This document shows, piece after piece, positions 3,485 through 48,773 of a stretch of DNA of 64,000 nucleotides. This stretch comes from Microbacterium testaceum StLB037. GTDB taxonomy: Bacteria; Actinomycetota; Actinomycetes; Actinomycetales; Microbacteriaceae. The notes below the pieces were generated by a model. The model was not told the DNA's origin, did not search any database, and saw nothing but the letters and a program-made list of their open reading frames with translations. The stretch is taken from NCBI RefSeq assembly GCF_900104345.1, contig NZ_FNJN01000007.1:1-64000 (forward strand), written 5' to 3'. Each line of letters begins with the position of its first letter. Position 1 is the stretch's first letter. Both the position numbers and the translations under genes were made by a program.

Positions 3485-6337
3485 GTGGCAAACGGAAAGA
3501 AGCTCGTCATCGTCGAGTCCCCGACGAAGATGAAGTCGATCCAGGGATACCTCGGCGACGACTACGAGGTGCTCAGCTCGGTCGGTCACATTCGCGACCT
3601 CGCGTCGAAGAAAGAGATCCCGGCCGACAAGAAGGCGGCGTACGGCAAGTACTCCATCGACGTCGAGAACGACTTCGACCCCTTCTACGTGGTCAACGAC
3701 CGCAAGACGAAGACCGTCGCCGAGCTCAAGCGCGCCCTCAAGACGGCCGACGAAGTCCTCCTCGCCACTGATGGTGACCGCGAAGGCGAAGCCATCGCGT
3801 GGCACCTCCTCGAGGTCCTCAAGCCCAAGGTCCCCGTGCGTCGCATGATCTTCCACGAGATCACCAAGGACGCCATCAAAGAGGCCGCCGAGCACACCCG
3901 CGAACTTGACGTCTCGCTCGTCGACGCGCAAGAGACCCGCCGCGTGCTCGACCGGCTCTACGGCTGGGACGTCTCGCCCGTTCTGTGGCGCAAGGTCGGC
4001 TCGGGCCGCGAGGGCACGGCCCTCAGCGCCGGTCGCGTGCAGTCCGCGGCCACCCGTATGGTCGTCGAGCGCGAGCGCGAGCGCATGGCTTTCGTCTCGG
4101 CCTCGTACTGGGACGTCGAGGCACTCGCGTCGCAGTCCGGCTCCTCGTTCACCACGCGCTTGAACCGTCTCGACGGTGCGCCCATCGCGCGCGGCGGCGA
4201 CTACGACGACAACGGCCAGCTCAAGAAGGCCGTCGTGGTCCTCGATGAGGCGCAGGCACGCGCACTCGCGGACGCGATCACCGCCGCCGGCACGGCGACC
4301 GTCGCCAAGGTCGAGGCGAAGCCCGGCACGCGCAGCCCGCGCGCCCCCTTCACGACCTCCACGCTGCAGCAGGAGGCCGGCCGCAAGCTCTCGATGAGCG
4401 CCAAGCACGCCATGGGCGTCGCCCAGCGACTCTACGAAAAGGGCTTCATCACCTATATGCGTACCGACTCGGTCGCCCTCTCGGGGCAGGCCATCTCGGC
4501 AGCGCGTGCTCAGGCCGTCGCTCTCTACGGCGACAAGGCCGTTCCCGCGAACCCGCGCGTCTACAAAAGCAAGTCGAAGAACGCGCAGGAGGCGCACGAG
4601 GCCATCCGTCCCTCGGGCGAGACCTTCCGCACGCCCGCGTCGCTCGCGTCCTCGCTCGATCGCGACGAGCAGAAGCTGTACGACCTGATCTGGAAGCGCA
4701 CCGTCGCGAGCCAGATGGCGGATGCCAAGTACGAGACGACGACCGTCACGCTCACGGTCAAGGCCGGTGACCAGGTCGCCGAGTTCACGGCATCCGGAAC
4801 CGTTTACACCTTCAAGGGGTTCCTCGAGGCTTACGAAGAAGGCGCCGACGAGAAGCGCAACGACGACGATGCCGACCAGTCGCTGCCGGCGGTCGCCGTG
4901 GGCGACACGCTGTCGGTCAGCGATGTCGAGCCCAAGGGGCACAGCACCTCTCCGAAGCCGCGGTACACCGAGGCCAGCCTGGTCAAGGCCCTCGAAGAGA
5001 AGGGGATCGGTCGCCCGTCTACCTTCGCCAGCATCATCGGTGTGATCCTCGACCGTGGGTACGTCAGCAAGCGTGGTCAGGCGCTCGTGCCCAGCTGGCT
5101 CGCGTTCAGCGTCGTCCGCCTCCTCGAAGAGCACTTCGCCGACCTCGTCGACTACGACTTCACCGCCGCCCTCGAAGACGATCTCGACGCCATCGCGCGT
5201 GGCGAGCAGCGCCGCACCGAGTGGCTGAAGTCGTTCTACTTCGGCTCCGAGAAGCAGGTGGGACTGCGTCACATCGTCGACAACCTCGGCGAGATCGACG
5301 CTCGCGAGCTCAACTCGACGCGCATCACCGACACGGCCACGCTGCGCTTCGGAAAGTACGGCCCGTACCTCGAGGTGACCGATCCCACGGCCGCCCCCGA
5401 CGCCAAGCCGCGCATCGTCAACATCCCCGAGGACCTCGCGCCCGACGAGCTCACGCCCGCGAAGGCGCAGGAGCTCATCGACGCCCCCGTGGCCGGCGAC
5501 CGGGTGCTGGGCGAGAACCCCGAGAACGGCAAGCTCGTCGTCGTGAAGGACGGACGCTTCGGCCCCTACGTGCAAGAGGTCGACGCCGAGGAGCCCGAAG
5601 AGGTCGACCAGGCCACGGGCGAGGTCGTCGAGGCCCCCAAGAAGCGCGGAGCCAAGAAGGAAGCGGCCCCGAAGCCTCGGACCGCCTCGCTCTTCCGGTC
5701 GATGTCCGTCGACACGGTCGATCTCGATACGGCCCTGCAGCTGCTCTCCCTTCCCCGCGTCGTGGGTACCGACCCCGCCTCGGGTGAGGAGATCACCGCG
5801 CAGAACGGTCGCTTCGGTCCCTACCTCAAGAAGGGCACCGACTCCCGGTCGCTCGACGACGAGAAGCAGATCTTCGACATCACGCTCGACCAGGCGCTCG
5901 CGAAGTACGCCGAACCGAAGTACGGCGCCCGCCGGGCCTCGAGCGCTCTGAAGGAGTTCGACGCCGACCCCGTCAGCGGCAAGCCCCTCAAGCTGAAGGA
6001 CGGTCGCTTCGGTCCCTACGTCACCGACGGCGAGACCAACGCCACTGTCCCCCGCGGCGAAGACGCGATGGCGATCACCTTCGAGCGCGCCGTCGAGCTG
6101 ATCGCTGACAAGCGCGCCAAGGGTCCCGCGCCGAAGAAGACCGCAGCGCGAAAGGCCCCCGCGAAGACCACGGCAGCGAAGACCACGGCCGCCAAGACCA
6201 CGGCGGCCAAGACGACGGCGAAGACCACCGCGGCGAAGACGGCTGTCACCAAGACGGCGGCCGCCAAGACGACGGCCGCCAAGACCGCCGCCCCGCGGGC
6301 GACGACCACGCGCAAGGCCCCGGCGAAGAACTCGTGA
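3485..6337 (+). CDS. topA: DNA topoisomerase I
   Basis: A 950-residue type IA topoisomerase that relaxes negative supercoils through a transient 5'-phosphotyrosine. The N terminus KLVIVESPTKMKSIQGYLG starts the TOPRIM domain, which carries DREGEAIAWH. The catalytic Tyr is about residue 324 in ITYMRTDS. After the core come repeated C-terminal modules with the signature GRFGPY (four copies), then a tail of Lys-Thr-Ala repeats about 50 residues long, typical of actinobacterial TopA and thought to bind DNA. The GTG at 3485 was preferred to the ATG at 3452 because GAAAGGA lies six bases before it and family members begin at this point. tmk overlaps its stop (GTGA). Confidence 0.96.
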   Translation: MANGKKLVIVESPTKMKSIQGYLGDDYEVLSSVGHIRDLASKKEIPADKKAAYGKYSIDVENDFDPFYVVNDRKTKTVAELKRALKTADEVLLATDGDREGEAIAWHLLEVLKPKVPVRRMIFHEITKDAIKEAAEHTRELDVSLVDAQETRRVLDRLYGWDVSPVLWRKVGSGREGTALSAGRVQSAATRMVVERERERMAFVSASYWDVEALASQSGSSFTTRLNRLDGAPIARGGDYDDNGQLKKAVVVLDEAQARALADAITAAGTATVAKVEAKPGTRSPRAPFTTSTLQQEAGRKLSMSAKHAMGVAQRLYEKGFITYMRTDSVALSGQAISAARAQAVALYGDKAVPANPRVYKSKSKNAQEAHEAIRPSGETFRTPASLASSLDRDEQKLYDLIWKRTVASQMADAKYETTTVTLTVKAGDQVAEFTASGTVYTFKGFLEAYEEGADEKRNDDDADQSLPAVAVGDTLSVSDVEPKGHSTSPKPRYTEASLVKALEEKGIGRPSTFASIIGVILDRGYVSKRGQALVPSWLAFSVVRLLEEHFADLVDYDFTAALEDDLDAIARGEQRRTEWLKSFYFGSEKQVGLRHIVDNLGEIDARELNSTRITDTATLRFGKYGPYLEVTDPTAAPDAKPRIVNIPEDLAPDELTPAKAQELIDAPVAGDRVLGENPENGKLVVVKDGRFGPYVQEVDAEEPEEVDQATGEVVEAPKKRGAKKEAAPKPRTASLFRSMSVDTVDLDTALQLLSLPRVVGTDPASGEEITAQNGRFGPYLKKGTDSRSLDDEKQIFDITLDQALAKYAEPKYGARRASSALKEFDADPVSGKPLKLKDGRFGPYVTDGETNATVPRGEDAMAITFERAVELIADKRAKGPAPKKTAARKAPAKTTAAKTTAAKTTAAKTTAKTTAAKTAVTKTAAAKTTAAKTAAPRATTTRKAPAKNS

Positions 6338-38951: not shown

Positions 38952-38973
38952 GGGTGAACGGAAGGTGAACCGG
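38952..38973. promoter_or_regulatory. PHO-box-like direct repeat between pstS and the Pls-type synthetase gene
   Basis: Two adjacent 11-base repeats, GGGTGAACGGA and AGGTGAACCGG, match at eight positions and resemble the tandem GTTCACC units bound by PhoP in actinobacteria (here read on the minus strand). A third GTGAACGG lies at 38912-38919. The site is shared by pstS (minus) and the synthetase (plus, GTG at 39021). Confidence 0.75.
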
Positions 38974-39006
38974 GGCGGCCGTTCCGGGGTGTTTTCCCGG
39001 GGGTTG

Positions 39007-39012
39007 TACTGT
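39007..39012 (+). promoter_or_regulatory. Possible -10 TACTGT of the Pls-type synthetase gene
   Basis: TACTGT lies eight bases before the GTG at 39021, so the mRNA would be leaderless or nearly so; the PHO repeat is 34 bases further upstream, where an activator would sit. Confidence 0.4.
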
Positions 39013-39020
39013 TCATCCCC

Positions 39021-42000
39021 GTGACGACCTCCGCTTCCCAAGCTCAGGCCCCGCTCGACCGGACGGGGGCCGCGGCTCCCGCGCGCACCCTCATCGACAT
39101 CCTCACAGACGTCGCGTCTCGGCATCCGGAGGCCTCCGCGATCGACGACGGATCCGGAGCGCTCAGCTACCGCGAACTGCTCGCGCGGGTGAGGCGGACG
39201 GCGGCGGCCCTGCACGAGGCGGGGGTGCGCCGGGGCGACCGGGTGGGCGTGCGCATGCCGTCCGGGTCGAAGGAGCTGTACGTCTCGATCCTCGCGGTCA
39301 TGGCGGCGGGCGCCGCTTACGTGCCGGTGGATGCCGATGACCCCGACGAGCGCGCGCGCCTGGTGTTCGGCGAAGCCGGGGTGCGCGGCATCGTCGCGGG
39401 GGAGGGGGAATTCGTCGCGGCCGAGGGTGATCTCGTCCGTCTCTACGACGGAGCGGCGCCGCACCCCCGCACGAGCGCCGTCCCCATCGTCGCCCCGCCC
39501 GCGATCGACGACGATGCGTGGATCATCTTCACCTCGGGATCCACGGGCGTCCCGAAGGGCGTGGCGGTGTCTCACCGTTCGGCGGCGGCGTTCGTCGAGG
39601 CGGAGGGGCGGATCTTCCTGCAGGGCGAGCCGCTCGGCCCCGGCGACCGCGTGCTGGCCGGACTGTCGGTCGCGTTCGACGCCTCGTGCGAGGAGATGTG
39701 GCTCGCCTGGGGACACGGGGCGTGCCTCGTGCCGGCTCCTCGTTCTCTCGTGCGCTCGGGGGAGGACCTGGCCCCGTGGTTGCTGCGGCAGGGGATCACG
39801 GTCGTCTCGACCGTTCCGACCCTCGCCGCGATGTGGCCGGCCGACTCGATCGAGAACGTGCGCCTGCTGATCTTCGGCGGAGAGGCGTGTCCGCCCGAGC
39901 TCGCCGCTCGCCTCGTGGCCGAGGGGCGCGAGGTGTGGAACACCTACGGTCCGACCGAGGCCACCGTCGTGGCGTGCGCGGCTCCGCTCGACGGCTCTCT
40001 GCCCGTGCGCATCGGCCTGCCCCTCGACGGGTGGGCCCTCGCGGTGGTGGATGCCGAGGGACTCCCCGTCCCCGAGGGCGCGGTGGGCGAGCTGATCATC
40101 GGCGGTGTCGGCCTCGCCCGGTATCTCGATCCCGCGAAGGACGCCGAGAAGTACGCACCGATGCCGACCCTCGGGTGGGAGCGGGCGTATCGCTCGGGGG
40201 ACCTCGTGCGCTTCGAGCGCGAGGGGCTGGTGTTCCAGGGGCGCGCGGACGATCAGGTCAAGGTGGGCGGCCGCCGGATCGAGCTCGGTGAGGTCGAATC
40301 GGCGCTGCAGAATCTTCCGGACGTGAGCGCGGCGACCGTGGCGGTGCGGACCACCGAAGCGGGGGTGCCGGTCCTCGTCGGCTATCTCGTGATGGAGGTC
40401 GGAGCCGAGCTCGATCGCGGGGCTGCCCGTGCGGCTCTCGCGGAACGACTCCCGGCCGCGACCATCCCCCTCCTCGGCGTGGTGGACTCCCTGCCGGTCC
40501 GCACCTCGGGCAAGGTCGACCGCGCGGCCCTCCCGTGGCCCCTGCCCGGACTGGAAGCCCCCGCCGCGACGGACTTCTCGGTCGACGAGGCCTGGTTGGC
40601 CGAGCAGTGGCAGGCCGTTCTGGGCATCCCCGTCACCGAGCGCAAGGCCGACTTCTTCGATCTCGGTGGGGGGTCGCTCGCCGCCGCGCAGCTCGTCTCG
40701 CGCATCCGGGCACGGGTGCCGGAGTTCTCAGTCGCCGACATCTACGACGTTCCGCGCCTCGGGGCCATGGCCAAGGCGCTCGGACCGCAGCTCTCCGACG
40801 AGACGCCCGCCGCCTTCCACCGCGCCGAACCGACGCCGCGCACCACCCAGTGGGCGCAGACCCTCCTCGGCGCTCCGCTGTTCATCCTCTCAGGTGTGCG
40901 GTGGCTGCTGTACCTGCTCACGGCCTCGGCGCTCCTTCGGCTCGTCCCCGGATTCGACGTGCTGCCGTCGGTGCCCTGGCCGGCTCTCGTCGTCGGTCTC
41001 CTCGTCTTCGCGACGCCGTTCGGGCGCATGGCGATCGCCGTGGCATCCGCTCGACTTCTTCTCTCGGGCGTGCGCCCCGGCGACTATCCGCGGGGCGGGT
41101 GGGTGCACATCCGGCTCTGGCTCGCCGAGCAGATCGCCGATCAGGTGGATGCCGTGGGTCTGGCCGGAGCCCCCTGGGTGTCGTACTACGCCCGGGCGCT
41201 GGGCGCGCGGATCGGTCGGAACGTCGACCTGCACGCGTTGCCTCCCGTCACGGGGATGCTCGTCATCGGCGACGGGGCCTCGATCGAGCCCGAGGTCGAC
41301 CTGACCGGGTACTGGATCGACGGTGACCTCGTTCGCATCGGCGAGGTGCGCATCGGCGCCGAGGCCACGGTCGGCGCTCGCTCGACGCTCGCACCCGGCA
41401 CCCGCATCGGTCGCCGTGCCGAGATCGCGCCGGGCTCGGCCGTCTTCGGACGCGTCAAGGCGGATCAGTCGTGGGCGGGATCGCCCGCCGTCCGCGTGGG
41501 CGGGACGGCGAAGGGGTGGCCGACGCACCGGCCCCCGGCGCCCACCCGCTGGCTGTGGGCCTACGCGGCATCGGCGGTTGTGCTCGCTCTTCTCCCGCTC
41601 GCCTCCTTCACCGTGGGCGGTCTCGTCGTGGCGCAGGGGATCCGCGGGGCGGACGATCTCGGCCACGCGGCCGCGGGCGCCTTCGCCTGGCTCGTCCCGG
41701 GTGTCGCCGTCGCGGGCCTGGTGTTCGCGGCATCCGTGGTGCTTCTCGTGCGCGTGATGTCGATCGGCCTCACCGAGGGCACCCACCCGGTGCGCAGCCG
41801 CGTGGCGTGGCAGGCGTGGACGATCGAAAGACTCCTGGATGCCGCCCGCACGGTGCTCTTCCCCCTCTACTCCTCGCTGTTCACGCCCGTGTGGCTGCGC
41901 CTGCTGGGTGCGCGCGTCGGACACGACGTCGAGGCCTCGACGGTTCTTCTGATCCCGTCGATGACGCGCATCGAAGACGGGGCGTTCCTCGCCGACGACA

Positions 42001-42959
42001 CGATGGTCGCGTCGTACGAACTGCGCGCGGGGTGGATGCGCATCGGGCCCGTACGGATCGGCAAGCGCGCCTTCCTCGGCAACTCCGGAATGGCCGCGCC
42101 CGGCCACCGCGTTCCGCGGGACGGGCTGGTCGCCGTGCTGTCCGCAGCGCCGATGAAGGCCAAGGCGGGATCGTCCTGGTTGGGCTCGCCCGCGGTGCGC
42201 CTTCGCCGGCTCTCGGCCGAGGGTGACGAGTCGCGCACCTATCGACCGACCGCGAGCCTGCGTCTCGCGCGGACGCTGTGGGAGCTGTGCCGCTTCGTGC
42301 CGGTCGTCGTCACCTGCGCGATCGGCCTCGGCGTGATGTTCGCTCTCGCCGCGCTCTGGGTCGTGCTCGGTCCGGTGTGGACGCTGCTGTTGTCGGGCGT
42401 CGTGCTGCTCGCGGCGGGGGCTGTCGCCGCGGGGGTCTCGACCGCGGCGAAGTGGGCCATCGTCGGCGTGATCCGCGCGGGCGAGCAGCCGCTGTGGTCG
42501 AGCTTCGTCTGGCGCACCGAAGTGTCGGACACCTTCACCGAGATGGTTGCGGCCCCGTGGTTCGCGCGCGCGGCGGCGGGAACCCCGGCGCTCGCCGTCT
42601 GGCTGCGCAGCCTCGGCGCGAAGATCGGTCGCGGCGTGTGGTGCGACAGCTACTGGCTGCCCGAACCCGACCTGGTCACGTTGGGCGACGCGTCAACCGT
42701 CAACCGCGGATGCGTCGTTCAGACGCACCTGTTCCATGATCGAATCATGAGTATGGATACCGTCGAGCTGGAGCCGGGGTCGACCCTCGGTCCGCACAGC
42801 GTCGTCCTCCCCGCCTCCACCCTCGGCGCGCACGCGACCGTGGGGCCCGCCTCGCTCGTCATGCGCGGTGAGACCGTCCCGGTCGGTTCGCGGTGGAGCG
42901 GCAACCCCATCGGTCCGTGGCGCGCGGTGAAGGTGCGCGCGTACCAGTCGACGACGTGA
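39021..42959 (+). CDS. Pls-type single-module polyamino-acid synthetase (NRPS-like)
   Basis: A 1312-residue membrane NRPS. An adenylation domain (about 20-515) has A3 FTSGSTGVPKGVAVSH, A5 NTYGPTEATVV, A7 YRSGDLVRF and A10 PVRTSGKVDRAALP. A carrier domain (about 525-600) has the phosphopantetheine Ser in FFDLGGGSLAAAQL. The C-terminal 700 residues alternate about six helices with three soluble domains carrying hexapeptide-like repeats (GDGASIEPEVDL, GAEATVGARS). There is no condensation or thioesterase domain. Length and layout equal those of epsilon-poly-L-lysine synthetase of Streptomyces albulus. The Asp for the alpha-amino group is present in VAFDASCEEMW. Product inferred: an isopeptide-linked polyamino acid. 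The M1 peptidase gene overlaps its stop. Confidence 0.85.
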   Translation: MTTSASQAQAPLDRTGAAAPARTLIDILTDVASRHPEASAIDDGSGALSYRELLARVRRTAAALHEAGVRRGDRVGVRMPSGSKELYVSILAVMAAGAAYVPVDADDPDERARLVFGEAGVRGIVAGEGEFVAAEGDLVRLYDGAAPHPRTSAVPIVAPPAIDDDAWIIFTSGSTGVPKGVAVSHRSAAAFVEAEGRIFLQGEPLGPGDRVLAGLSVAFDASCEEMWLAWGHGACLVPAPRSLVRSGEDLAPWLLRQGITVVSTVPTLAAMWPADSIENVRLLIFGGEACPPELAARLVAEGREVWNTYGPTEATVVACAAPLDGSLPVRIGLPLDGWALAVVDAEGLPVPEGAVGELIIGGVGLARYLDPAKDAEKYAPMPTLGWERAYRSGDLVRFEREGLVFQGRADDQVKVGGRRIELGEVESALQNLPDVSAATVAVRTTEAGVPVLVGYLVMEVGAELDRGAARAALAERLPAATIPLLGVVDSLPVRTSGKVDRAALPWPLPGLEAPAATDFSVDEAWLAEQWQAVLGIPVTERKADFFDLGGGSLAAAQLVSRIRARVPEFSVADIYDVPRLGAMAKALGPQLSDETPAAFHRAEPTPRTTQWAQTLLGAPLFILSGVRWLLYLLTASALLRLVPGFDVLPSVPWPALVVGLLVFATPFGRMAIAVASARLLLSGVRPGDYPRGGWVHIRLWLAEQIADQVDAVGLAGAPWVSYYARALGARIGRNVDLHALPPVTGMLVIGDGASIEPEVDLTGYWIDGDLVRIGEVRIGAEATVGARSTLAPGTRIGRRAEIAPGSAVFGRVKADQSWAGSPAVRVGGTAKGWPTHRPPAPTRWLWAYAASAVVLALLPLASFTVGGLVVAQGIRGADDLGHAAAGAFAWLVPGVAVAGLVFAASVVLLVRVMSIGLTEGTHPVRSRVAWQAWTIERLLDAARTVLFPLYSSLFTPVWLRLLGARVGHDVEASTVLLIPSMTRIEDGAFLADDTMVASYELRAGWMRIGPVRIGKRAFLGNSGMAAPGHRVPRDGLVAVLSAAPMKAKAGSSWLGSPAVRLRRLSAEGDESRTYRPTASLRLARTLWELCRFVPVVVTCAIGLGVMFALAALWVVLGPVWTLLLSGVVLLAAGAVAAGVSTAAKWAIVGVIRAGEQPLWSSFVWRTEVSDTFTEMVAAPWFARAAAGTPALAVWLRSLGAKIGRGVWCDSYWLPEPDLVTLGDASTVNRGCVVQTHLFHDRIMSMDTVELEPGSTLGPHSVVLPASTLGAHATVGPASLVMRGETVPVGSRWSGNPIGPWRAVKVRAYQSTT

Positions 42960-44254
42960 GCGTGGCCGACCCCTACGCCCCGCAGAGCGGCGACCTCTCG
43001 TACGACGTCGAGTCGTACGACCTCGCGATCGGCTATCGCGTCCGCACGAACCGCCTCGACGGCGTCGCCACGATCGTCGCGGTCGCGCGCGAGGCCGTGT
43101 CGTCGTTCACTCTCGATCTCGTCGGCCTCCGAACGTCGCGCGTGCGCGTCGACGGGGCGGTCGCGCGATTCTCGGCGGGGCCGCGGACTCTGCGTGTGAC
43201 GCCCCCGCACGCTCTCGCCGCCGGGGACCGCTTCGAGGTCGAGGTGACCTACGCGGGTGCGCCCGCTCCCCGCCGGTCGCGGTGGGGAACCGTGGGCTGG
43301 GAGGAGCTGACCGACGGCGCTCTCGTCGCGGGGCAGCCCATCGGCGCCCCGACGTGGTTCCCGTGCAACGACCGCCCCGACAACAGGGCGCGCATGCGCC
43401 TCGAGATCACGGTCGACGACGGCTACGCCGCCGCCGCCACCGGCGTCGCGGGGTCGAGCACGCGGCGGGGTGGTCGGACGACGACGACGTTCGTCTCCGA
43501 CGTCCCCACGGCGACGTACCTGGCGGCCGTGCACGTCGGTCGGTACCGCACGCGTCAGCTCGAGGGCACCGGTGACGCCCCGGTGCCCGCCGTCACGGTC
43601 ACCGCCCCTCCCGCCCTGACCGCCGCGGTCGATCGCGCCTTCGCGACGGTGCCCGACATGCTGCGGGCCTTCGACCGCTTCTTCGGGCCGTACCCCCAAG
43701 AAGCGTGCACCCTCGTGGTGACCGCCGACGAGCTCGAGATTCCCCTCGAGGCGCAGGGGCTCGCCGTGTTCGGGATGAACCACCTCGTTCCCGCCGCGCA
43801 GCGTCTGGTGGCGCACGAGCTGGCCCACCAGTGGTTCGGCAACAGCGTGGGCATCGCCCGGTGGAGCGACATCTGGCTCAACGAGGGCTTCGCCTGTTAC
43901 GCCGAGTGGCTGTGGTCGGAGACCTCGGGAGGGGCCTCCGTCGAGTCGTGCGTCGCGGACTACTACGCGCGACTCGCCGCGAAGCCGCGCGACCTCCTGC
44001 TGGTCGATCCCGGGCCCGATGACATGTTCGACGACCGGGTCTACAAGCGCGGGGCCCTCACGCTGCACGCGCTGCGGCGCACGCTCGGCGACGAGGCGTT
44101 CTTCGATCTCCTGCGGTCGTGGACGGCGGACCACCGCCATGCCCTCGTCACCACGGATGATTTCCGCGCCGCGGTCGAGCGCGCCGGGGGACCCGATGCC
44201 GCGGCGGTGCTGTCGCGGTGGATCGACGACGTGGCATTGCCCGTGCGACCCTGA
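42956..44254 (+). CDS. M1 family zinc aminopeptidase coupled to the synthetase
   Basis: A 432-residue peptidase. Zinc site HELAHQWFGN (His287, Glu288, His291) with the third ligand Glu310 in NEGFACYAEW; the substrate-N-terminus loop appears as FGMNHLV in place of the classical GAMEN. It lacks the large C-terminal helical domain of aminopeptidase N. The GTG overlaps the synthetase stop (GTGA). In epsilon-polylysine producers, M1-type enzymes (Pld) that degrade the polymer are encoded next to the synthetase, so a self-protection or chain-trimming role is inferred. No signal peptide is visible. Confidence 0.85.
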   Translation: MSVADPYAPQSGDLSYDVESYDLAIGYRVRTNRLDGVATIVAVAREAVSSFTLDLVGLRTSRVRVDGAVARFSAGPRTLRVTPPHALAAGDRFEVEVTYAGAPAPRRSRWGTVGWEELTDGALVAGQPIGAPTWFPCNDRPDNRARMRLEITVDDGYAAAATGVAGSSTRRGGRTTTTFVSDVPTATYLAAVHVGRYRTRQLEGTGDAPVPAVTVTAPPALTAAVDRAFATVPDMLRAFDRFFGPYPQEACTLVVTADELEIPLEAQGLAVFGMNHLVPAAQRLVAHELAHQWFGNSVGIARWSDIWLNEGFACYAEWLWSETSGGASVESCVADYYARLAAKPRDLLLVDPGPDDMFDDRVYKRGALTLHALRRTLGDEAFFDLLRSWTADHRHALVTTDDFRAAVERAGGPDAAAVLSRWIDDVALPVRP

Positions 44255-44279
44255 CGGCCGGCTCGCGTCGTCGTTAGGC

Positions 44280-44912
44280 TCAGAGGCCCGAGGCGCTCTC
44301 CACCGCCACGGCGAGCACGACGTTCGCCGGACCATCGAGGTCCCACCCGCGCCATTCGCGCGGGAGGCCCTCTGCCGGGTCACCCTCGTTCGCGCGGGGC
44401 CGTCCGCGCGGGGCGGACGAGAGGATTCGAGCCACCCACGTGTCCCCGTGCCCCTGGACGGCGACCCGTCGAGCATCGACGGTCAGCCCGCGTCCGTCGG
44501 CTTTCAGGACGGCCTCGACGCGCGCCCACGTCCGGGCGGGCGCGGCGCTCGACCCGCCGGCATCCGCCCACGCTTCCGGAGCAGGCGACTCGAGATCGTC
44601 CGGTCCTGGGGGCGCGAGCCGCGGAAGCACCCGCTCCAGACCCCCCGCATCGGTGGGCACCGCATCCAGACCGACGCGCTCGAGACCCTGCGCTGCCACC
44701 GCGACGGCCCACCCCTCGACGTACGACACCGAGACCGCGGCATCCGCCCCCTCCACGTGGATGCGGCCATGGTCTCCGCCGCACGCGGGGCATCGCGAAC
44801 GGAACCGCGCGCCCGGCAGGAGCTCGGCCAGGAGCGCCCGCGACACGTCGCGACGCCTGGCACCAGCGGGGACCTCGCGCCAGGCGAGTCGGATGCCGGT
44901 GGGGAGCGTCAC
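44280..44912 (-). CDS. 4'-Phosphopantetheinyl transferase-like protein, divergent
   Basis: A 210-residue Sfp-type homologue. The family outline is present: PGARFRSRCPACGG with HGRIHVEG, then VSVSYVEGWAVAVA, ERVGLDAV and WARVEAVLKADGRGL. Several key positions differ from Sfp: Tyr replaces His in S-H-S, Val replaces the metal-binding Glu in G-I-D-x-E, and the K of W-x-x-K-E-A is Val. It may still load the carrier domain of the convergent synthetase 25 bases away. It is the last gene of the glnR-ppk-mutT1 run; the start overlaps the mutT1 stop. Confidence 0.72.
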   Translation of the reverse strand: MTLPTGIRLAWREVPAGARRRDVSRALLAELLPGARFRSRCPACGGDHGRIHVEGADAAVSVSYVEGWAVAVAAQGLERVGLDAVPTDAGGLERVLPRLAPPGPDDLESPAPEAWADAGGSSAAPARTWARVEAVLKADGRGLTVDARRVAVQGHGDTWVARILSSAPRGRPRANEGDPAEGLPREWRGWDLDGPANVVLAVAVESASGL

Positions 44913-45859
44913 ACCTTCGGTTCGTGCGTCTCGATGGCCACGATGCCGGCGCCGGGGTGCTCGACGGGGATGTGCACGACCGAGAACGCCGCGGGCTCCA
45001 GCGCCGAAGCGCTCCCGAGGTACGAGCCGCCCATGGTTCCGGTCGCGAGCGCGAGCTCGTGCAGGATGTCGGGCAGGACGGGTCGGTGGCTCGACACGAC
45101 GACCGGCTTGCGCGCGCGCACCCGTTCGCCGATGAGCGACCGGGCGTCGGCGCGGCCCTCTTCCCACGCGTCCTGGCTGACGGCCTCGGTCAGGTGGACG
45201 CGCTGGCCGAGCGCCTGGGCGAGGGGAGTGGCGGTGCGGACACAGCGCTCGGCGGGGCTCGAGTAGACCCGACGCACACCGAAGGCGAGGAGGGGACCGA
45301 CGATCGCCTCGGCCTGGCGGCGCCCGCGCGGGGTCAGGGGGCGGGCGCTGTCGGAGCCCTCCCACCCCTCGCGGGCCCGCGCCTTGCCGTGGCGCAGCAC
45401 GACGATCGGGAAGGTGGGCAGAGCCCCCTCTTCGACGATCCGCGTGAACTCGTCGAGGATCTCGATGTCGACGGGGTAGCTGAGGTTCTTGCGGGCCTTC
45501 TTCAGGCTCACCCACTCGATCGCCGCGACCTCTTTGTTCGGCACGAACGTCGAGCTGCGCACGGCGGCATCGGTCGCCTCGGCCGCCCAGTAGTGCACGA
45601 TCTTGGTGCGTGAACTCGGCATCCGGTATCGAGAGACCCCGACGGGCACCCCCAGCGAGACGCGGATGCCGGTCTCCTCACGGATCTCGCGCACCGCGGT
45701 CTCGGCGAGCGTCTCGCCGGGGTCGACCTTGCCCTTCGGGAGGGTCAGATCCCGGTACTTCGTGCGGTGGATGAGCAGGATGCGGAGCTTCCCCTCGACC
45801 TGCCGCCACACCACACCGCCGGCCGCGTAGACAGCGGTCTCGATCTCGGTCTTCGTCAC
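44909..45859 (-). CDS. mutT1: MutT1-type NUDIX hydrolase fused to a histidine phosphatase domain
   Basis: A 316-residue two-domain protein. The N-terminal NUDIX domain has the box [22 protein letters not shown] (residues about 43-64; key residues G, E, R-E-x-x-E-E). The C-terminal SixA-like phosphatase has the catalytic His in VVLRHGKA and [11 protein letters not shown]. Mycobacterial MutT1 has the same fusion, hydrolyses 8-oxo-dGTP and diadenosine polyphosphates, and is also adjacent to ppk. The GTG overlaps the ppk stop. Confidence 0.9.
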
Positions 45860-48024
45860 CGCGCCGTCCGGGCCCGACGCTTGCGCTGGACGAGAGCCAT
45901 CGTGTGCTCCTGCAGGTCGATGAGGGGCGCCCCGGCATCGTCGACGCTGTGCCGCGTCCACTCGCCCTCGGACCCCAGGTGCCATGAGCTCGTCCCGTCG
46001 TCCATCGCGAGGGTGAACAGGGTCGTCAGCTCCTGCACCTGCACGGGGTCGACCACGCGGACCAGGGCCTCGACGCGGCGGTCGAGGTTGCGGTGCATCA
46101 TGTCGGCGCTGCCGATGAACACCTGCGGGTCGCCGTCGTTCTCGAACGTGAAGATGCGGGAGTGCTCGAGGTAGCGGCCGAGGATGGAGCGCACCGTGAT
46201 GTTCTCGCTCATCCCGGGGACGCCGGGCTTGATCGAGCAGATGCCGCGCACCCACACCTCGACGGGCACGCCCGCCTGGCTCGCGCGGTACAGGGCATCG
46301 ATGATCTCTTCGTCGACCATCGAGTTGACCTTGATCCGCACCCCCGAGGGCTTGCCCTCGAGAGCGTTGCGGCGCTCCTTGTCGATGTGGCGCAGGAGCC
46401 CTCGGCGCAGGTGCAGGGGTGCGACGAGCAGACGCTTGAACTTCTTCTCGATCGCGTACCCGCTCAGCTCGTTGAACAGACGGGTGAGGTCGCGACCGAC
46501 CTGGTCGTCGACGGTGAACAGGCCGAAGTCCTCGTAGATACGGCTTGTCTTGGGGTTGTAGTTGCCCGTGCCGACGTGGCTGTAGTGGCGCAGGCGCCCC
46601 TCTTCTTCGCGGATGACGAGAGCGAGCTTGCAGTGGGTCTTGAGGCCGACGAGACCGTAGACGACGTGGACGCCCGCCTTCTCGAGCTTGCGCGCCCAGA
46701 CGATGTTGTTGGCCTCGTCGAAGCGGGCCTTCACCTCGACGAGCGCGAGCACCTGCTTGCCGGCCTCGGCCGCGTCGATGAGCGCCTGCACGATGGGGCT
46801 GTCGCCCGAGGTCCGGTACAGCGTCTGCTTGATCGCGAGCACGTGCGGGTCGCGGGCGGCCTGCTCGAGGAAGGCCTGCACGCTCGTCGCGAACGACTCG
46901 TAGGGGTGGTGCACGAGCACGTCGCCCTTGCGGATCGCGCCGAACAGGTCGGCGCGGCCGTTCTGCTCGGGCGGCTGGAAGGCCAGAGCCGTCTTGGGCA
47001 CATGCGGCGGGTAGCGCAGATCGGGCCGGTCGATGCGCGAGAGGTCGAACAGGCCGCGCAGATCGAGGGCGCCGGGCAGCCGGTAGACCTCCTGCTCGGT
47101 GATGTCGAGCTCGCTCAGCAGCAGCGAGCGGGTCACGTCGTCCATGTCCTCGGTGATCTCGAGGCGGATGGGCGGGCCGAAGCGGCGACGCAGGAGCTCG
47201 GCCTCGAGCGCCTGGATGAGGTTCTCGGTCTCGTCCTCTTCGATCGTCATGTCCTCGTTTCGCGTCAGGCGGAACGCGTGGTGATCGAGGACCTCCATCC
47301 CGGGGAACAGGTCGCCGAGGTGGTTCGAGATGAGCTCCTCGAGCGGCAGGTAGCGCACGCCGGGCCCGTCTCCGCCGATCTCGACGAAGCGGGGGAGCAT
47401 GGGGGGCACCTTGAGGCGCGCGAACTCCTGACGGCCCGTGCGGGCGTTGCGGATGCGGATCGCGAGGTTCAGCGACAGGCCCGAGATGTACGGGAACGGG
47501 TGCGCGGGGTCGACGGCCAGCGGCATGAGCACCGGGAAGACGTTGCGCTGGAAGTACTCGGTGAGCCGCTCGGCGGTGGGCTCGTCGAGCGAGTCCCACG
47601 TGACGACCTCGATACCGGCGTCGGCGAGAGCGGGGCGCACCTTCTCGGTCCAGGCGGCGGCGTGGCGGAGCTGCAGGCGGTGCGCCTCGGCCGAGATGTC
47701 GGCGAGCACGTCGAGCGGGGCGCGACCGACGTTGGTCGGGACGGCCAGGCCCGTGACGATACGGCGCTTGAGGCCGGCGACGCGCACCATGAAGAACTCG
47801 TCGAGGTTGCTGGCGAAGATCGCGAGGAAGTTCGCGCGCTCGAGCACGGGGACCGTGGGGTCTTCGGCGAGTTCGAGCACGCGCTGATTGAACGACAGCC
47901 AGCTGATCTCGCGGTCGAGGTAGCGGTGGTCGGGAAGCTGGTCGTCTTCGGCCTCTACGGCCTCGTCGAAGTCGTCGTCGTCGGCGTCGCCGAGACCGGC
48001 ATCCAGCGAGTCGTGTTCCATCAT
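45856..48024 (-). CDS. ppk: Polyphosphate kinase 1
   Basis: A 722-residue enzyme that makes polyphosphate from ATP. N-terminal block [17 protein letters not shown]; catalytic region with [10 protein letters not shown] and the autophosphorylated His in [12 protein letters not shown]; second PLD-like motif [15 protein letters not shown]. Length is normal. Of two adjacent ATG codons the first (48024) has AATGAT six bases upstream, the leaderless spacing. It follows glnR by 56 bases and is coupled to mutT1. Confidence 0.95.
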
Positions 48025-48080: not shown

Positions 48081-48773
48081 TTATGCGGAGGGGGATGCCG
48101 CGGCGGGGGCGTCGTCCTCGTAGACGTTGAACCGGTAGCCGACGTTGCGCACCGTGCCGATGAGCTGCTCGAGATCGCCGAGCTTCGCGCGCAGGCGTCG
48201 CACGTGCACGTCGACCGTGCGCGTGCCGCCGAAGTAGTCGTAGCCCCAGACCTCGCTCAGCAGCTGCTCGCGCGTGAAGACGCGCGAGGGGTGCGTGGCG
48301 AAGAAGTGCAGGAGCTGGAACTCCTTGTAGGTGAGGTCGAGGGGCTTGCCGTGCACCTTCGCCGAGTAGGACGACTCGTCGATCGTGATGCCCGAGGTCT
48401 GAATGCGCGTGGAGACCTGATCGGCGGCGCGACGGCCCATCGCGAGTCGGATGCGCGCGTCGATCTCGGCGGGACCCGCGCCGACCAGGACGACGTCGTC
48501 GATGCCCCAGTCGGTGGAGACCGCGGTGAGTCCGCCCTCGGTGACGATCAGCACGAGCGGCGCCTCGACGCCGGTGGTCGTCAGGATCTTGCTGAGCGAC
48601 TTCGCGCCGACCAGGTCGAAGCGCGCGTCGACGAAGATGACGTCGGCGCTGGGGGCGTTCACCAGCTGCGCGGCCTCGGCGGGGATCTGTCGGACGCGGT
48701 GGCTCAGCAGTTCGAGCGCAGGCAGGGCCGCGCCGCCGCCCGGGGCGGAGCTGAGTACCAGAAGCTGTGCCAA
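48081..48773 (-). CDS. glnR: GlnR, orphan OmpR-type regulator of nitrogen metabolism
   Basis: A 230-residue response-regulator-like protein. The atypical receiver domain starts [22 protein letters not shown] and keeps an Asp (Asp49, VIFVDAR) but lacks the normal acidic pocket; the C-terminal winged helix has [16 protein letters not shown] and [20 protein letters not shown], closely resembling Streptomyces GlnR. It activates or represses nitrogen-assimilation genes without a dedicated kinase. It starts with TTG; the ribosome site GGGAGG five bases upstream and the family start support this. Confidence 0.9.

Follow-up and report, generated by a model that had tools for sequence, protein, structure and literature searches.

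The window, by which we mean the whole analysed stretch of 64,000 nt from Microbacterium testaceum StLB037, carries a chromosomal epsilon-poly-L-lysine gene set that is an addition to a known type. It is not a first for the genus, since Pls homologues in Microbacterium are already in print (PMC8117764). The following features were found at the locus:

38952..38973, minus strand: PHO-box-like direct repeat GTTCACC-N4-GTTCACC, reading toward pstS
38991..39020, plus strand: candidate pls promoter, proposed from an alignment of near relatives
39021..42959, plus strand: pls, ORF of 1312 aa with GTG start
42956..44254, plus strand: M1 zinc peptidase gene, ORF with GTGA overlap with pls
44280..44912, minus strand: predicted Sfp/PptT-type phosphopantetheinyl transferase (PPTase) gene, ORF that ends 25 bases away from the stop of M1
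44909..45880, minus strand: MutT1-like Nudix/phosphatase gene, stop overlapping the PPTase start, a neighbour only

The three ORFs from pls to the PPTase gene, the GTGA overlap and the 25-base gap between the converging genes had been reported in the preliminary description and were all found again at these positions. On the left flank of pls lie pstS, pstC, pstA and pstB, all on the minus strand. Beyond the PPTase gene follow the overlapping mutT1-like gene, which is a neighbour outside the polylysine function, then ppk (two genes beyond the PPTase gene) and a gene for a GlnR/PhoB-like regulator, past which a THAP4-like heme-binding gene is located on the plus strand.

Judged by its sequence, the protein of 1312 residues belongs to the epsilon-poly-L-lysine synthetases (Pls). 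Its domain order is AMP-binding (residues 30–367) and PP-binding (525–587) according to Pfam, followed by the NCBIfam Pls/PosA model TIGR02353 (612–1297), which scores 712.6 bits at a cut-off of 423.1; in a control on 14 well-known genomes, one had a match over this cut-off. Pfam also gives hexapeptide matches, and neither a condensation nor a thioesterase family is among the five Pfam families of the protein. The A domain has its best PDB match in the epsilon-poly-L-lysine synthase 7wew with 623 bits (405 bits for the next solved protein). The earlier assignment as an A-carrier-membrane synthetase of Pls type, without condensation or thioesterase domain, is thus upheld by Pfam, TIGR02353 and 7wew alike. 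Past residue 600 a plain hydropathy scan gave membrane-like peaks at 615–674, 852–910 and about 1092–1110, plus one extra, false-looking peak inside the A domain; the three peak regions are compatible with the published six transmembrane helices in three pairs, though no proof of them. Loss of the carrier serine in relatives had been named beforehand as a counter-indication, and we found S552 kept in 82 of 82 alignment rows (81 distinct loci, the window being entered twice).

The ten specificity residues, whose extraction had been proposed as a check, read DAESIGTVVK in the window Pls and are identical to the letters in 7wew. The same ten letters occur in 81 of 81 readable same-genus rows (80 distinct loci, the window again being entered twice; row L061 was cut short and left out of this count). 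The key residues of the pocket are D220, A221 and E224; its positions are numbered after PheA. By analogy with characterised relatives, lysine is the best-supported substrate, since the pocket agrees letter for letter with that of the solved epsilon-polylysine synthase. A cationic homopolymer of ornithine, diaminobutyrate, diaminopropionate or beta-lysine, made by a synthetase of the same family, has to be weighed against this. The Pls/PosA family is broad, TIGR02353 is a single model for all these homopolymer synthetases, and PosA of Acinetobacter baumannii is of the same family and architecture with the conserved pocket Asp and Glu; it differs in its pocket (DMEHNGTVSK), its substrate ornithine and its product delta-poly-L-ornithine (PMC10522769). 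In PosA, Asp217 and Glu221 touch the two amines of the substrate, Glu221 the side-chain one, and lysine-activating members of the family have Ala in place of PosA Met218 (PMC10522769). The window Pls has this lysine-type residue (A221) in a pocket unlike that of PosA, and an operon with an M1 peptidase gene is the context of Pls, unlike that of the other three synthetases compared in PMC8117764, which leaves another cationic homopolymer very unlikely. The preliminary description had placed a Glu of the motif FDASCEEMW directly after the conserved Asp and suggested that it may favour a basic amino acid; this residue, E224, aligns with PosA Glu221, but it lies four positions past D220 and is not adjacent to it.

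The protein encoded by the overlapping gene matches PF01433 with 98.5 bits (Pfam), and the motif HELAH-x18-E is intact in the window and in all 84 same-genus pls loci. Among the matches listed for named relatives, which cover 80 of 594 relatives, the motif is present in 80 of 80 loci, and the M1 domain starts at ≤150 bp from the pls end in 78 of them, the remaining two being L163 (636 bp) and L211 (1246 bp). A 4-bp overlap between pls and the M1 gene, either GTGA or ATGA, was found in 77 of the 84 same-genus loci and is therefore not a matter of chance. The pls-pldII pair of Streptomyces albulus is built alike, with a common domain order, a pocket of the 7wew type and an M1 gene that overlaps pls downstream by 4 bp in a single operon (PMC4361855). 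The window M1 is 46–50% identical to the pls-adjacent M1 proteins of six Streptomyces loci among the matches listed and is, judged by position and sequence, a PldII ortholog. The M1 zinc peptidase of the Pld-type family, coupled to the synthetase, had thus been recognised correctly from PF01433, the motif and the overlap. As to the proposed set for synthesis, trimming and activation, the synthetase, the PldII-like M1 and the PPTase were borne out, while trimming of the polymer by M1 is doubtful: inactivation of Pld and PldII in Streptomyces left both production and chain length unaltered (review PMC8506220). Self-protective degradation fits this lack of effect on yield and length better than trimming, and by analogy M1 would most likely degrade the polymer for self-protection.

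Taken alone, the PPTase scores 18.4 in Pfam, under the cut-off of 25, and a search with the window sequence alone found no solved relative; a PPTase sequence profile reached Sfp at E 0.004. An AlphaFold2 model of the protein (pLDDT 86.1) gave 31 Foldseek matches at E≤0.001, every one of them a PPTase. Compared with mycobacterial PptAb/PptT and Bacillus Sfp, the protein has the HG, Asp and W-E-K signatures in common, with a Z score of 15.7 for PptAb (rmsd 3.3 over 171 residues) and 14.0 for Sfp (4mrt), at 14–19% identity; the window copy departs from them in the Val that it has at the second GxDxE position. Across 67 aligned rows, the window among them, C41, C44, G45, H48, D83, W129, E133, K137 and A138 are invariant, so that the catalytic Asp/Glu/Lys pattern (GxD, W..xE..xK; D83, W129, E133, K137) is found in 67 of 67 rows. 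The second acidic position of GxDxE is Val85 in the window, with Val in 14 and Glu in 49 of the 67 rows; we do not take this second acidic residue as defining, since the AcpS branch is not known to need it. By its predicted fold the gene product is of Sfp/PptT type, and the PPTase-like gene described earlier as converging on M1 is supported by this fold, the Foldseek matches and the catalytic residues.

We examined 149 genomes of the genus, 84 of which are over the Pls cut-off, three of these with partial matches at contig ends. By BLAST the PPTase was found in 77 of the 84 Pls-positive and in none of the 65 Pls-negative genomes (Fisher p = 1e-34, a value that overstates the case because related genomes are counted as independent). 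75 of the 77 converge on pls within 6 kb, and the other two are located on separate contigs, one at a contig end (G063). The apparent separation in the other genome, G058, is likely to be a scaffold join, since a run of N at about 4921–4930 of its pls locus (L074) lies beside M1. The PPTase profile matched at 80 of these 84 loci, or 82 counting G058 and G063. The two Pls-positive genomes without a local PPTase are G121 and G143; PF01648 genes are present at two other places in each, and Pls may be served by one of them. Pls-negative genomes have one PF01648 match in 57 cases, two in 7 and none in 1. In the genome of the window itself (3.47 Mb, 12 contigs) the PP-binding carriers that we detected number two, namely Pls and AcpP, the latter encoded between fabH and fabF. 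PF01648 genes were likewise detected twice, as an AcpS-like gene and as the locus PPTase, which stays below cut-off. Two carriers and two PPTases in one genome, together with the co-occurrence with pls, make the PPTase the probable dedicated activator of the Pls carrier. The gene could instead be part of a mutT1-ppk operon that came to lie beside pls by chance, as it overlaps mutT1 at its start codon and is on the same strand. Its absence from all 65 Pls-negative genomes (BLAST) argues against this, as do the 16 Pls-negative genomes in which we read the mutT1 site and found none of pls, M1 and PPTase there; moreover, where pls is not located at mutT1, the PPTase still adjoins it in most cases. 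We regard chance adjacency as extremely improbable, and a PPTase inherited together with pls is the reading we keep.

Outside the genus all figures refer to the same 80 of 594 relatives among the matches listed. At E≤0.01 the PPTase profile matched 30 of these 80 named loci, and in 26 the gene is downstream and convergent. Such an arrangement occurs in Microbacterium, another Microbacteriaceae, Curtobacterium, Cryobacterium, Naasia, Arthrobacter, Pseudarthrobacter, Glutamicibacter, Kocuria, Humibacillus, Cellulosimicrobium, Cellulomonas, Nocardioides and a Propionibacteriaceae. Among the same matches, no PPTase profile match was obtained in Nocardia, Rhodococcus, mycobacterial, Streptomyces, Amycolatopsis, Pseudonocardia, Leifsonia and Brevibacterium loci, nor in one Cellulomonas and one Nocardioides; the link of pls and PPTase is therefore not universal. 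Fifty of the named genomes were searched for PF01648; 44 have two or more matches and 6 have one.

In 39 of the 84 same-genus loci pls is directly preceded by a gene for a histone-H1-like protein that is rich in Lys and Ala and has a Rho_N/SAP-like domain at its C-terminus, the gene ending from 41 bp before to 20 bp after the pls start. Examples, among others, are:

L039, 10894-11484, minus strand: Lys/Ala-rich gene
L062, 5799-6497, plus strand: Lys/Ala-rich gene
L077, 5646-6494, plus strand: Lys/Ala-rich gene

Rho_N was found in 6 of 9 members of this family. Our search of open-licence papers gave none that links a polylysine synthetase with a histone-like protein. Full-length homologues are present in at least 43 of 84 Pls-positive and at least 2 of 65 Pls-negative genomes (matches listed to about E 2e-7). 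The gene is absent from the window and its nearest relatives, and the genome of the window has a single open frame of 99 aa with a Rho_N-type match. Both main branches of the Pls tree include loci with this gene, so that its ancestral presence in the genus, followed by loss in the lineage of the window, is probable.

With regard to genomic position, 40 of the 84 pls loci are located beside both pst (called by PstA/PstC) and mutT1, 2 beside pst only, 4 beside mutT1 only and 38 beside neither; the six one-sided loci are cut by contig ends or a run of N. The distance from pstC to mutT1 is 1.3–1.8 kb in the 16 Pls-negative genomes read at this site, leaving room for pstS, vs 7.3 kb in the window. 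In a FastTree phylogeny of Pls the pst-mutT1 location is confined to a single clade, which comprises 47 rows and shows a few exits. Two loci of this branch, L068 (genome G052) and L098 (G101), have pls elsewhere, still accompanied by the H1-like gene, M1 and PPTase; joint relocation of all four genes is suggested by this.

Taken as a chromosomal locus whose Pls makes and exports epsilon-poly-L-lysine, whose M1 degrades it and whose PPTase arms the carrier, the gene set would work as follows, a reading that we consider highly probable. The A domain of Pls would activate L-lysine with ATP and load it onto the phosphopantetheine arm of the carrier domain, after the converging Sfp/PptT-type PPTase had turned the apo-carrier into its holo form. 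The membrane domain would link the lysines by isopeptide bonds and deliver the polymer outward, and the coupled PldII ortholog would degrade it, most likely in self-protection. We base this on gene identities, pocket letters, catalytic residues, the predicted PPTase fold and the co-inheritance of three genes. The polymer product, its export and the role of the peptidase are carried over from characterised relatives. Val85 in place of Glu, the PPTase score below the Pfam cut-off and the two genomes G121 and G143 without a local PPTase speak against it.

Epsilon-polylysine is an antimicrobial polymer and a food preservative from Streptomyces. Streptomyces Pls is about 58% identical to the window Pls (six loci among the matches listed, S. 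albulus not being one of them); the window differs in its convergent PPTase, which has no profile counterpart in the Streptomyces loci among these matches. Corynebacterium variabile, likewise a non-filamentous actinobacterium, also has its pls in an operon with a peptidase gene, and with Streptomyces coelicolor as host this Pls was shown to produce epsilon-polylysine; the available excerpt names no PPTase partner (PMC8117764). While the pls-pldII operon and Pls of Microbacterium are already known, the co-inherited PPTase is a new detail, and our searches of open-licence papers gave no description of such a partnership; the passages of PMC4361855 refer to PPTases in a gene-ontology statement. 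If this PPTase is needed where there is otherwise only AcpS, the enzyme may stay unarmed when pls is expressed by itself, and the gene set to transfer would be pls, peptidase and PPTase. According to the same paper on C. variabile, pls genes found in other actinobacteria have been silent in culture, and polymer was not detectable in C. variabile itself or in C. glutamicum with its pls (PMC8117764); the Microbacterium locus may hence be silent as well.

A different view of the same locus is that pls is induced by phosphate starvation through the repeat it shares with pstS, which would tie polymer synthesis to phosphate scarcity. In the clade of the window the repeat starts 68 bp ahead of the pls GTG, upstream of a candidate -10 conserved in near relatives, and pls is placed between pst and ppk. 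The -10-like hexamer, TACTGT in the window, ends 8 nt before the GTG, which suggests a leaderless pls transcript. The repeat itself reads toward pstS, and each of the 42 pls loci adjacent to pst has it (all 14 positions in 37, 13 in 5), even where another gene parts it from pls. It is also present in 16 of 16 Pls-negative pst loci, and in 1.66 Mb scanned 5 of 63 sites fall outside these pst promoters. Among the 38 loci with pls elsewhere, one of which (L100) lacks upstream sequence, a site with one mismatch occurs in three, at a distance of up to 1.5 kb upstream and on the opposite strand. Being kept in relatives without pls and reading toward pstS, the repeat, on which the earlier hint at expression under low phosphate rests, belongs to pstS. 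Control of pls by phosphate through the repeat is possible, and we assign induction by starvation a low probability beside the constitution of the locus as a polylysine gene set described above. Less probable still is a scenario for this clade in which the polylysine cassette, PPTase included, inserted at the phosphate locus and later lost the Lys/Ala-rich gene, a loss that placed pls under control of the PHO box of pstS. The polycation would then be made in phosphate starvation and may act together with polyphosphate, as its counter-ion or as a phosphate scavenger. The regulator gene beside ppk (48081-48773, minus strand) encodes an OmpR/PhoB-type protein whose N-terminal domain is of GlnR type (PF21695), possibly an orphan regulator in the phosphate locus.
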